From an uncultured Bacteroidia bacterium (lineage in GTDB: Bacteria > Bacteroidota > Bacteroidia > Bacteroidales > UBA932), in contig CACXNA010000007.1 of the NCBI GenBank assembly GCA_902768985.1, positions 89,337-153,336 on the forward strand: 64,000 bases of DNA, given 5' to 3'. How positions within the stretch are numbered: the stretch's first letter is position 1; every line of letters begins with the position of its first letter. Both the position numbers and the translations under genes were made by a program. Below the pieces are notes generated by a model, which was given only the letters and a program-made list of their open reading frames with translations, searched no databases and was not told where the DNA came from. Below, one piece after another: positions 1,184-53,856 of this stretch.

Positions 1184-1294
1184 CTGTGAGCTATAATTAA
1201 TTAAAAGACAGCAAAATACTATTTAACACTCCCCCATTTTCGAGGGGAGTATAAAGAAGTAACACCCTGGCCCCCAGCCACATCCACCTCACAG
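1184..1294. repeat. Family A nested palindrome, copy 1
   Basis: Outer arms CTGTGAG (1184-1190) and CTCACAG (1288-1294) enclose a central hairpin built on ACTCCCCC and GGGGAGT. The length is 111 bp. Confidence 0.8.
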
Positions 1295-2006: not shown

Positions 2007-2116
2007 CTGTGAGCTGGAAGTAGTTAGTAGATTGGTATTTATGACATTATACTCCCCCGAAAAAGTGGGGAATATAAAATTATATTCTTCTGTCTTCCAA
2101 CAGATTACACCTCACA
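2007..2116. repeat. Family A nested palindrome, copy 2
   Basis: The outer arms begin at CTGTGAG (2007) and end at CTCACA (2116). The central hairpin contains TATACTCCCCC and a degraded right arm (GTGGGGAATATA). Confidence 0.7.
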
Positions 2117-2235
2117 ATGTAGCGGAGAAGCGGCGTGGCGGCAAGGCGGCAAGGCGGCGTGGCAGGGAGGCAGGAAGGCAGAGCGGCAGGGCCACAGACC
2201 TACAGCTGCCCACAGACCTACAGCCACACACAGAC

Positions 2236-34790: not shown

Positions 34791-34902
34791 GCTGTGAGCT
34801 GTAAGTAATTACAGATCAGCAATATAACAAATTATACTACCCCCAAAATGGGGGTAGTATAATTTTATTATTAACTATCAATCAGCTAGTTACAGCTCAC
34901 AG
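34791..34902. repeat. Family A nested palindrome, copy 3
   Basis: Outer arms GCTGTGAG and CTCACAG; core TTATACTACCCCCAAAATGG and GGGTAGTATAA. A compensating A-T change in both stem arms (TACTACCCCC with GGGGGTAGTA) keeps the hairpin intact. Confidence 0.8.
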
Positions 34903-38113: not shown

Positions 38114-38200
38114 CAACTTTTTTCTGGATTCTCCCACTCACCCCTCCACACAAACGCACGCCCCGCACACCTCCCCATGCACGCCGCCCGCCCCTCCCCT

Positions 38201-38296
38201 TCACAAACCCCGTCTCAAACCCCGTCACAAACCCCGTCACAAAACCCATCACAAAACCCGTCACAAACCCCTTCACAAAACCCGTCACAAAACCCG
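38201..38296. repeat. 12-bp tandem array, eight units
   Basis: Eight consecutive copies of TCACAAAACCCG with few substitutions, 96 bp in total, lying directly upstream of the recA promoter. Confidence 0.85.
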
Positions 38297-38344
38297 CGGA
38301 AGCCGCTGCCGTTTTACGTAACTTTCTCGCACACAGCACTTTCC

Positions 38345-38611: not shown

Positions 38612-38724
38612 GCTGTGAGACATAACTAATTATCTAACAGCAAATTAACGTTTTGTACTCCCCCGGAAATCGGGGGAGTACAAAACAGCATTTCCCTGAG
38701 TAACAGCACGTTACAGCTCACAGC
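38612..38724. repeat. Family A nested palindrome, copy 4
   Basis: The most regular copy: outer arms GCTGTGAG and CTCACAGC, second-level CAGC/GCTG-type motifs, and core TTTTGTACTCCCCC and GGGGGAGTACAAAA with loop GGAAATC. Confidence 0.85.
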
Positions 38725-43375: not shown

Positions 43376-43488
43376 CTGTGAGCTATAACTCACTATCCCT
43401 CAGCCATTTACAACTTTGTACTCCCCCAAAATCCGGGGGAGTACAAATCAGCAACTCCCAATCCATCAATCTCTTACTGCTCACAGAA
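43376..43488. repeat. Family A nested palindrome, copy 5 (left flank of the RAYT gene)
   Basis: Outer arms GCTGTGAG and CTCACAG; core TTTGTACTCCCCC and GGGGGAGTACAAA. The right outer arm overlaps the last codons (CEQ-stop) of the transposase gene. Confidence 0.85.
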
Positions 43489-44436
43489 AAAAAAGCCATT
43501 CAGCGTCGCCCTCCCAAAAGGCCGGTGCAAAAACTTGGCTACCTGCAGATCCGTCGCCCCGGTTTTGCCCTGCAGCGTCCTCCCTATCTCCTCTATCCTC
43601 GACGCCGACAGATTCCACAATGGGAATCCCGGTTTCAGCAACCCGGCCCGTCCCGCCGCAACACACATCTCCCGATACGGCACATCTGACCACTTATCAT
43701 GCTCCTCCTTAACCCCAAACTCCCGCCCCTTCGTCGCATCCACCGTTTTCACCATACCCGACAGACCGCCAAACAACTTGCTGCCCCCTTTCACATCTAA
43801 ATAGAAATACCGGTGGATGATATAGTCCGTCAACTGCCACCGCTCCTCATCGTTCAAACCCTCAAACAAGCGACGCAGCATAACATAACCCAGATACCTT
43901 CCGCAACGAAATTCCATATCCACCTCCTTCAGCGCGTCCCGCAGCGCCCACCGGCACTGGCTCAACATCGGCTTCGCCGAGAACGGGAACGCATTATCGT
44001 AATACGCCAGGAACGTCCACCTGTCCTCAATCGCGCGCCGGACCAACCTCTTCTCTACCGGATTATTAAAAACATACACCAGCGCCGAACGTTTGTCCTT
44101 CTCGGAGGACATCGCCGCACTGCCGAACGGCCCCTCGAAGAGACGCCCCTGCCGCCCCGTCTCCTCATTGTACTCCCGGGTAAAAATACTGTTGAGATCG
44201 TGCTCAAACGCAATCAACTGTGAAGGATCCGCCGCCGCGACCACATCGTGCGTATGCGTAAACATATGGCAGGACGCCTGTATCGGCAGATTGTGCCGGC
44301 GCGCGACGACGGATTCAACAGTATAATAAACCAAATGATCTGCAACACGATAGAACAACACGCCGCCATCCACCGTTCTTTTGTAGACATGCTGATAAGA
44401 CCCTTCCGGCGTCCTCCGTTTAATTTCGTTTTTCAC
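43474..44436 (-). CDS. REP-associated tyrosine transposase (RAYT)-like protein
   Basis: A protein of 320 residues with the Y1-HUH transposase (IS200-related) plan in its first 130 residues: YQHVYKRTVDGGVLFY, an HxH motif in MFTHTHDVV (His61, His63), REYNEETGRQGRLFEGPFGS (candidate nucleophile Tyr89) and YVFNNPVEKRLVRRAIEDRW, matching the RAYT pattern FN..G..G.lf...f and Y...NP. A long C-terminal region of unknown type follows. The start is GTG at 44436. The gene is bracketed by family A palindromes whose outer arms overlap or touch both its ends, the arrangement expected of a RAYT with its REP substrates. The hydrophobic residue of HUH is Thr here. Confidence 0.75.
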   Translation of the reverse strand: MKNEIKRRTPEGSYQHVYKRTVDGGVLFYRVADHLVYYTVESVVARRHNLPIQASCHMFTHTHDVVAAADPSQLIAFEHDLNSIFTREYNEETGRQGRLFEGPFGSAAMSSEKDKRSALVYVFNNPVEKRLVRRAIEDRWTFLAYYDNAFPFSAKPMLSQCRWALRDALKEVDMEFRCGRYLGYVMLRRLFEGLNDEERWQLTDYIIHRYFYLDVKGGSKLFGGLSGMVKTVDATKGREFGVKEEHDKWSDVPYREMCVAAGRAGLLKPGFPLWNLSASRIEEIGRTLQGKTGATDLQVAKFLHRPFGRATLNGFFFCEQ

Positions 44437-44548
44437 TTGTGAGTTAGATTAGATTGATTAATAGATTATTATCGATTTATACTCCCCCTGAAAACGGGAG
44501 AGTTCAAAATAGCATCTCGCTGTGTATAAGCAACATACAGTTCACAGC
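44436..44548. repeat. Family A nested palindrome, copy 6 (right flank of the RAYT gene)
   Basis: A diverged copy: outer arms CTTGTGAG and TTCACAGC, core TTATACTCCCCC and CGGGAGAGTTCAAA. It abuts the GTG start of the transposase gene. Confidence 0.75.
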
Positions 44549-45927: not shown

Positions 45928-46040
45928 GCTATGAGCCGTATCTATTTATATATCAATAAAATACTGAATTATACTCCCTCGAAATCAGGGGGAGTACAAT
46001 TCAGCAACGTTCTCACACCCAGCCACTTCCACCTCACAGC
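45928..46040. repeat. Family A nested palindrome, copy 7
   Basis: Outer arms GCTATGAG and CTCACAGC; core TTATACTCCCTC and GGGGGAGTACAA. Confidence 0.75.
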
Positions 46041-46109
46041 ATTTTACCACCTGGACCGGAATTGTCCCGGGCCTGGGCGGTCAATGTGCTGGCAAGGTCG
46101 TTTGGAGCC

Positions 46110-46320
46110 GCTGGTAGCGCTTGGGGGCACCGCCGCCTCCCATTACCATAGTCGGCGGCTGCAAGGCGGACGATTTTGAGAGCCCCCATGGCTCTCAAAA
46201 TCGCCCGCTTGCTGCCCGGTTGGTGTGGCCGCACCAGGCAACAGGCGTGGCTACTCCATTAGCATACCTCTCCCGGCGCGAGCCGCCGACTCCCGTAATG
46301 GGAGGCGGTGAGCGCCCAAG
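46110..46320. repeat. Family B element, copy 2 (inverted, internally deleted)
   Basis: The terminal repeats CCGCCTCCCATTACCA and CCGTAATGGGAGGCGG and the internal GAGCCCCCATGGCTC palindrome are present in the opposite orientation to copies 1 and 3. The central GGCGTCGCTGAGCTCG part is missing. Confidence 0.7.
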
Positions 46321-46362
46321 CCAGACGATTCAATTGTGCAAACTAGGGTTCAGCGGATTTTT

Positions 46363-46475
46363 GCTGTGAGCCGGAAGTTGGTCAGTGATAGGATATTAAC
46401 GTTTTGTACTCCCCCAAAATTCGGGGGAGTACAAATCAGCAATCAGCTATAAGCCAGCGACTTACAGCTCACAGC
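46363..46475. repeat. Family A nested palindrome, copy 8
   Basis: Outer arms GCTGTGAG and CTCACAGC; core TTTTGTACTCCCCC and GGGGGAGTACAAA. Confidence 0.85.
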
Positions 46476-47918: not shown

Positions 47919-48030
47919 CTGTGAGCCGCAACGTTTTAATAGTCAGAGAATTACCATTTTGTACTCCCCCAAAATTCGGGGGAGTACAAAACAGCAACTA
48001 GCAGAACACCAACAACTTACAACTCACAGC
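47919..48030. repeat. Family A nested palindrome, copy 9
   Basis: Outer arms CTGTGAG and CTCACAGC; core TTTTGTACTCCCCC and GGGGGAGTACAAAA. It fills the gap between tdk and xerD and ends 14 nt before the xerD start. Confidence 0.85.
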
Positions 48031-53530: not shown

Positions 53531-53569
53531 GTGTACGCGATCCGCCGGTGCTGGGCTGGAGCCGCCTCC

Positions 53570-53856
53570 CATTACGGTAGTCGGCGCCTCCAGCCGGGAG
53601 AGGTAAGCGATTGGAGTTGGCGGGGCGAGCGTTGTGGCCAAAGGCACCCGCGCCTCGCAATACGCGGCTCGGCGCGTACAGGTTAGGGGGCGTCGCTGAG
53701 CTCGTCGAAACGGCTCGCGACGCCACGCCTGTTGCCTGGTGCTGCCGGGACAACCGGGCAGCAAGCGGGCGATTTTGAGAGCCCCCATGGCTCTCAAAAT
53801 CGTCCGTCTTGCAGCCGCCGACTACCGTAATGGGAGGCGGCGGTGCCCCCAAGGCG
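53570..53856. repeat. Family B element, copy 3
   Basis: Complete copy: GCCGCCTCCCATTACGGTAG at the left, CTACCGTAATGGGAGGCGGC at the right, and an internal GATTTTGAGAGCCCCCATGG palindrome. Oriented as copy 1. Confidence 0.75.

Follow-up and report, generated by a model that had tools for sequence, protein, structure and literature searches.

A transposase-like gene that stands between two copies of a repeat occurring elsewhere in the same genome raises the question of whether its product generated that repeat. Such a locus lies in the 64,000-nucleotide stretch of DNA analyzed here (the window), which belongs to the genome of an uncultured Bacteroidia bacterium of the gut (Bacteroidales, UBA932). 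The initial annotation had described a RAYT gene bracketed by two copies of a dispersed palindrome of about 110 bp, termed family A, and had proposed that the encoded protein generated this family. Direct reading of both flanks confirmed the bracketing (Table 1). As had also been described, the right end of the downstream copy, to CTCACAG (43480 to 43486), encodes the last codons of the gene (Cys-Glu-Gln-stop), and the upstream copy begins at 44437, adjoining the GTG start codon.

Table 1. The RAYT gene and the family A palindromes, with their positions in the window
Feature	Position	Strand	Remarks
RAYT / TnpA_REP-like HUH-Tyr1 transposase gene	43474..44436	(-)	320 aa; GTG start (44434-44436)
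Family A nested palindrome, downstream bracket copy	43376..43486	.	Outer arms CTGTGAG...CTCACAG; covers RAYT stop codon
Inner hairpin of downstream bracket copy, TTTGTACTCCCCC-aaaatcc-GGGGGAGTACAAA	43415..43447	.	
Family A nested palindrome, upstream bracket copy	44437..44547	.	Inner stem degenerate; abuts GTG start
Dispersed family A copy	1184..1294	.	
Dispersed family A copy	2007..2117	.	From genome pattern search; absent from repeat listing
Dispersed family A copy	34792..34902	.	
Dispersed family A copy	38613..38723	.	
Dispersed family A copy	45929..46039	.	No counterpart at corresponding place of near relative L191
Dispersed family A copy	46364..46474	.	Also in L191, with compensated stem change
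Dispersed family A copy	47919..48029	.	Also in L191

On the basis of sequence comparisons and a predicted structure, the window protein is judged to be a divergent RAYT. The initial annotation had made this assignment depend on matches to profiles of Y1 transposases, and such matches were obtained. The NCBIfam profile REP_Tyr_transpos (NF047646) matched the window protein with an E value of 7e-6 (score, 26 bits, compared to a curated cutoff of 80) and, at E<=0.01, 79 of the 81 aligned members of its clade, the window protein being among the 81. The Pfam profile Y1_Tnp matched 66 of the 81 at the same threshold, the window protein not being one of them; searched alone, the latter had no match in Pfam, Y1_Tnp included. 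A search of the PDB by sequence gave a best E value of 0.36. When the AlphaFold2 model of the protein (pLDDT, 93.9) was compared with the PDB by Foldseek, the best match was 4er8_A, i.e., E. coli TnpA_REP bound to a REP hairpin, with an E value of 1.4e-4 and a TM score by target of 0.65. This was the sole match with E<=0.001; the transposases of IS200, ISDra2, and IS608 ranked behind it, with E values of 0.006 and above.

The protein alignment comprised 81 of the 82 loci read (L040 was left out), and H16, F28, M58, H61, H63, Y121, N124, N125, and D204 are invariant in all 81 proteins. Among the landmarks named initially, the HUH motif (H61-T-H63) and the FNNP motif were upheld, whereas Tyr89 had to be abandoned, this position being a tyrosine in only 32 of the 82 proteins. 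The catalytic tyrosine of RAYTs is presumably the one found in a YIxxNP-like motif. By this motif, as given in the Table 1 passage of PMC6006769, the catalytic residue of the window protein would be Tyr121, located within YVFNNP. The helical C-terminal domain (about residues 150 to 320) had no match in Pfam. Its model showed a pLDDT of 86.6 but a pTM of 0.52, and since the best match in the PDB by Foldseek had an E value of 2.0, no structural relative was found; in our own reading, the end of the domain looks helix-turn-helix-like. The C-terminal alignment included 47 of the 81 possible C-terminal stretches. In 295 genomes drawn from the order, the C-terminal domain profile matched the own genome only; the other 294, including one further member of the genus, gave no match.

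A search of 120 related genomes with the window protein gave matches in 49. Its own genus accounts for 73 of the 120 genomes and for 45 of the 49 with a match; the remaining four, from outside the genus, were matched weakly (E values of 2e-5 to 8e-4). As many as eight match rows came from one genome. Of the 103 rows in total, 82 were read; the remainder comprises 19 short or weak rows as well as G063:C73 and G061:C8. Several of the 103 contain one stop, which in the frames read is the gene's own end. The open frames at the 82 loci span 294 to 357 residues, and the commonest versions of their HUH motif are DHIH (22 proteins), DHVH (12), and NHIH (7); other common motifs are LFE (13) and LFK (11) as well as YVGNNP (12) and YIGNNP (8). 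Judged by sequence, these genes appear to constitute a clade of RAYTs that have a large C-terminal domain, were seen only in this genus, and are often accompanied by double-foot palindromes of about 110 bp.

The family A unit is 111 bp long, and nine copies were found in the window, two of them being the RAYT brackets. Eight, including both brackets, were taken from the repeat listing, and the ninth (2007 to 2117) was confirmed by reading. Between the outer arms lie two spacers, in which short blocks are conserved, and a G+C-rich inner hairpin, usually TTT[AG]TACTCCCCC...GGGGGAGTA[TC]AAA, which sits about 40 bp inside the ends. With GTGAG at each end, the same foot begins both strands, and family A is best described as a double-foot REP of about 110 bp in which an outer stem, spacers, and an inner hairpin lie between the feet. 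The initial description as a dispersed palindrome needed to be narrowed, as pairing does not extend throughout: in 22 copies, the 13 outer pairs were 82% standard and the 13 inner pairs 93% standard, while the spacers were mostly unpaired. The upstream bracket copy was recognized as a family A member as proposed, albeit with a degenerate inner stem.

Two inner-stem pairs often change on both sides, namely 42/74 (UA in 12 copies, AU in 8) and 45/71 (AU in 11, GC in 7). For the two stems in the 22 copies, the covariation score was 0.122 compared to 0.077 for shuffled alignments and was reached in 0 of 500 shuffles, with the caveat that kinship among sequences can beat shuffles without any structure. 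The counts of cells paired and of cells changed on both sides were above those of the shuffles as well; no excess was seen for pairs changed on both sides (5 versus 5.6) or for further pair types (14 versus 15.3). A 52-pair structure that included the spacers was rejected, no measure being clearly above the shuffles, and the two stems were then counted apart.

In the 2.35-Mb genome, the pattern GTGAGN{80,110}CTCAC was found at 35 places and its reversed control at 11. By eye, 20 of the 35 belong to family A, and 19 of these are exactly 107 bp long. The core pattern TACTCCCCCN{3,9}GGGGGAGTA was found at 12 places (control, 0). The model R1, built from 22 family A copies of this genome (G000) only, identified at least 25 distinct places with >=60 bits and at least 30 with E<=0.01, both numbers being minima because 150 of 347 candidates were scored (strands merged, manual count). 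The contig of the RAYT, C7, makes up 6.5% of the genome and holds 10 of the 25 places. For the copies other than the brackets, the fraction on this contig is 8/23 (p = 7e-5), an excess that was noticed post hoc and is given as a remark only; comparable clustering near the rayt gene is described for Thauera in the corresponding part of Nunvar 2010 (PMC2817692).

The association of gene and palindrome recurs at the sister loci. The 320 bp upstream of each RAYT were matched against the downstream stretches of all loci, which was possible for 81 of the 82 loci (the flank of L052 was too short). At 48 of the 81, the best match of the upstream flank was the locus's own downstream flank, the number expected by chance being 1 (binomial, 9e-70); at the other 33, the best match lay elsewhere. 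The wording of the palindrome varies from RAYT gene to RAYT gene. Searching the 80 other RAYT loci with R1 yielded 77 places (134 rows merged manually, E<=0.05), of which 64 lie within 150 bp of the gene ends, 4 over the 3' end, and 9 farther away. An adjacent place was present at 47 of the 80 loci, at 15 of them on both sides, and 28 of the 35 adjacent downstream places begin from 25 bases before to 4 bases after the gene's end. No R1 place within 150 bp was found at 33 of the 80 loci, two of which have one over the 3' end. The nested plan proposed initially is present beside many RAYTs of the clade, although not beside all: by eye, some are flanked by plain hairpins without outer arms, and at some other loci no flanking hairpin was found. 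Elements read by eye in six genomes mostly carry GTGA, GTAA, or GTGG at both ends, the exceptions being several elements, above all in G040. The second RAYT of the genome under study, L002 (G000:C1:177811-178692), is 38% identical to the window RAYT and has on both sides short ACTGTGGG...CCCACAGT hairpins that come in pairs, with a distance of about 43 bp; hairpins of this type occur at nine genomic places, of which four are at the L002 gene. A third, distant Tyr1-like gene, L003/L030 (934-1854; G000:C1, about 224 kb), encodes 306 residues and matched Y1_Tnp with an E value of 0.0014, below the cutoff; the sole inverted repeat listed for it lies about 500 bp upstream.

The distribution of the repeats follows that of the enzymes. 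R1 matched at least 50 of 101 genomes of the genus including the own one, i.e., 49 of 100 others. In 99 genomes drawn from the order, it matched the own genome alone, with no match in 97 genomes of other genera and none in one further genus member; as 37 or 38 candidates were scored per genome, the genus-wide and order-wide counts are minima. Among G000 to G072, R1 matches were present in 30 of the 45 genomes with a RAYT match and in 7 of the 28 without (Fisher, p = 7e-4, manual tally), several of these seven being incomplete. The initial annotation had regarded equal abundance of family A in relatives lacking the gene as evidence against its proposal; the exact family A core was found at 12 places in this genome and at none in 100 others of the genus. 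The TCCTCGTTC stem core was found 44 times in G037, 54 times in G038, twice in G019, once in G005, and not in the other 97 genomes; the TTCTCGTTC core at 37 places in G019 and in none of 100 other genus genomes; and the TCAACCTCTGC core at six places in G034, two of which are the brackets of the RAYT L068, and in none of 100 others of the genus. Each of these four repeat cores is restricted to one genome or a few, and these have a matching RAYT. One full-length family A copy in G063 lies near a 964-bp stretch with 99% identity to this genome, and so this copy may be acquired or mis-binned. The 964-bp stretch is shared by L112 (G063:C81) and L013 (G000:C4), i.e., by two species of the genus, and may itself reflect recent transfer or mis-binning.

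Enzyme and stem were also observed to change together. The RAYTs of G037, G038, and G019 are 67 to 82% identical to one another, follow similar upstream sequence (by eye), and bear in their flanks the stems of the respective dispersed copies. Comparing the stems of G037 and G038 with those of G019 shows one pair changed on both sides, and this change is present in 37 of the 39 exact G019 cores. The G005 RAYT L055 is of the G037 kind (62 to 73% identical), yet other stems lie beside it, and a single exact TCCTCGTTC core is present in its genome. A paired change also separates the window from its near relative L159/L191 (about 85% identical over the locus): the downstream bracket and the copies at 46364 and 47919 read GTACTCCCCC in the window and ATACTCCCCC in the relative. 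The exchanged pair is compensated on the opposite side in all three; in the copy at 47919, other pairs are broken in L159/L191. Template switching inside a palindrome is an alternative source of such paired changes, as it corrects the arms without selection. By itself, it would not spread a stem change through the genome. Across all loci, flank similarity remained at background (mean, 21 to 22) below 45% RAYT identity and reached 32 to 34 above 55%; the Mantel correlation of RAYT identity and flank score over all pairs was weak (0.073), with 1 of 999 permutations as high.

Several observations concern the surroundings of the repeats. The family A copy at 45929 has no counterpart in L191, but the spacer there fails to align, so that no exact borders of an empty site were obtained; G038 lacks one of the G037 copies at the corresponding place, again without exact borders. 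L191 is located on the 11-kb contig CADAPH010000063.1, which belongs to a MAG that carries the label Ruminococcaceae. The contig is largely syntenic with the window at about 74 to 87% identity, carries every R1 match listed for that MAG, and is probably mis-binned. A second dispersed repeat of about 220 to 400 bp is found in the window at 1318 to 1715, 46102 to 46324, and 53552 to 53856, in both orientations. It has inner palindromes of its own (CCGCCTCCCATTACGG..., GAGAGCCCCCATGGCTCTC), one copy lies between two family A copies, and the matching stretch is rearranged in L191. At 38197 to 38304, the window contains a 12-base tandem repeat of about nine units like CCCGTCACAAAA. No Rfam family reached the gathering threshold in the window.

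We consider it very probable that the locus is a REPtron, in which a domesticated IS200-like Tyr1/HUH transposase (RAYT), present in a single copy, is flanked on either side by its cognate repeat. According to the proposed mechanism, family A would fold where a single strand is exposed, as at the replication fork, and the RAYT would bind the folded single strand of its own element. It would cut at or near the GTGAG foot via Tyr121, with a metal held by H61 and H63, and the element would be rejoined elsewhere, so that copies would spread and be renewed in concert. As each RAYT would recognize its own stems, a stem change at the gene would pass to the dispersed copies. This scheme is modeled on E. 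coli TnpA_REP, which, in the sections of PMC8266576 and PMC6006769 that deal with it, cuts and joins single-stranded REPs; binding, cutting, and copying of family A by the window RAYT are accordingly predicted by analogy. The initial proposal that this RAYT generated family A is in that sense supported by the gene-specific palindromes beside sister RAYTs, rather than proven.

Alternatively, the gene and both palindromes could move as a whole, as an ordinary IS or TIR transposon. Terminal palindromes do frame the gene, as in IS200/IS605 elements and in the TIRtrons described in part of PMC3733652, and by eye the RAYT of L031/L160 (55% identical) follows different upstream sequence. Such an element is nevertheless improbable here, as the genome (95% complete) holds a single copy of the gene, the next match being 38% identical, compared to at least 25 palindromes, and as no match was found in plasmid and phage collections. 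Furthermore, the same upstream gene precedes the RAYT in L159/L191 (by alignment) and in L161 and L032 (by eye), with RAYT protein identities at the shared position down to 53 to 57%; the gene mostly stays put.

If, on the other hand, the palindromes were bidirectional terminators or host regulatory hairpins that merely happen to lie between genes, the RAYT among them, the G+C-rich inner stem and the fact that 5 of the eight window copies tested overlap no ORF of >=150 aa would be accounted for. This would leave unexplained that the wording of the stems is confined to one or a few species, in which it agrees with the RAYT flanks, that the upstream bracket copy precedes a start codon, and that R1 matched none of the 97 genomes of other genera, and we regard it as highly improbable. 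Least credible, and very improbable, is that another transposase moves the palindromes as MITE-like elements and that the RAYT became trapped between two of them. Their length of about 110 bp and their inverted ends are MITE-like; matching flanks of other wording at 48 of 81 RAYTs and the narrow positioning of 28 of 35 downstream R1 places around the gene's end argue against it.

The REPtron reading can be set against known systems. In the relevant passages of PMC2817692 and PMC8266576, REPtrons are described as having an HUH-Tyr1 core, a gene that does not multiply in the manner of an IS, and a REP near the stop codon, all of which are found here; cognate palindromes on both sides that coevolve with the gene and dispersed copies that accompany the RAYT are further likenesses. 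The elements described here differ by their length of about 110 bp, their nested stems, and a foot at both ends, and the protein by its C-terminal domain of about 160 residues. The foot GT[AG]G in front of a 20- to 40-bp hairpin, as given for REPtrons, is replaced by GTGAG here and mostly by GTGA, GTAA, or GTGG elsewhere in the genus. With at least 25 copies here and 37 to 54 exact cores in three other genomes, copy numbers are at the low end of the 37 to 427 perfect copies that parts of PMC2817692 and PMC8266576 give for Stenotrophomonas REPs; at least 25 copies are few for a REP family, which counts against the REPtron reading. TIRtrons (TIRYTs), as portrayed in the portion of PMC3733652 devoted to them, resemble the locus as well, as they combine a RAYT-like gene with long, sometimes self-complementary or double-palindromic flanking repeats that have no relation to GTAG REPs; some of these repeats overlap the end of the gene, and some are dispersed. 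The same combination, with flanking repeats that are long and self-complementary, is found here. The examples named in that portion come from Acidobacteria, Stenotrophomonas, and others, and it describes no genus-wide conserved plan with changing stems. By arrangement the locus is a REPtron, by repeat length a TIRtron.

TnpA_Y1 subclass 2.6 (RAYT group 5) likewise occurs in Bacteroidetes with atypical flanking structures that are copied in the genome, according to its description in PMC6006769. The same description gives about 179 residues, NH[LIV]H, WQ, and YIH[QN]NP for this subclass, whereas the clade reported here has 294 to 357 residues, commonly LFE or LFK, and Y-x-x-N-N-[PHA], and therefore does not conform to it. 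The TnpA proteins of IS200/IS605 elements (IS608, ISDra2) are similar in the predicted fold of the N-terminal part; they differ in that one gene copy is present here instead of several near-identical ones and in that Y-x-x-N-N is found in place of the Y---Q given for subclass 1.1.

A literature search, with most subscription journals outside its coverage, found no title on this clade. In Corneloup 2021 (PMC8266576), the discrimination of REPs by RAYTs and the joint change of enzyme and repeat were dissected in vitro for three duos. A single genus here provides 48 loci with a private two-sided repeat and 47 with a shared scaffold beside the gene. As there are many duos, and relatives close enough to follow paired base changes, recognition rules become testable by covariation and stem swaps. 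The elements suggest that a REP can be about 110 bp long, with nested stems and feet at both ends. They also suggest that a single RAYT clade can combine a palindrome with a large C-terminal domain, the passages of Quentin 2018 (PMC6006769) on such domains placing them in subclasses without REPs. It is conceivable, and we propose it tentatively, with somewhat more doubt than conviction, that this genus-restricted clade consists of dozens of diverged RAYTs, each with a nested palindrome of its own that is recodable and built on a conserved scaffold, in which constant feet and spacer blocks would be read by the protein core and variable stems by a co-diversified part, perhaps the C-terminal domain. 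If true, REP specificity would follow a modular, evolvable code for hairpins of single-stranded DNA, and protein-stem covariation could be used to read it.
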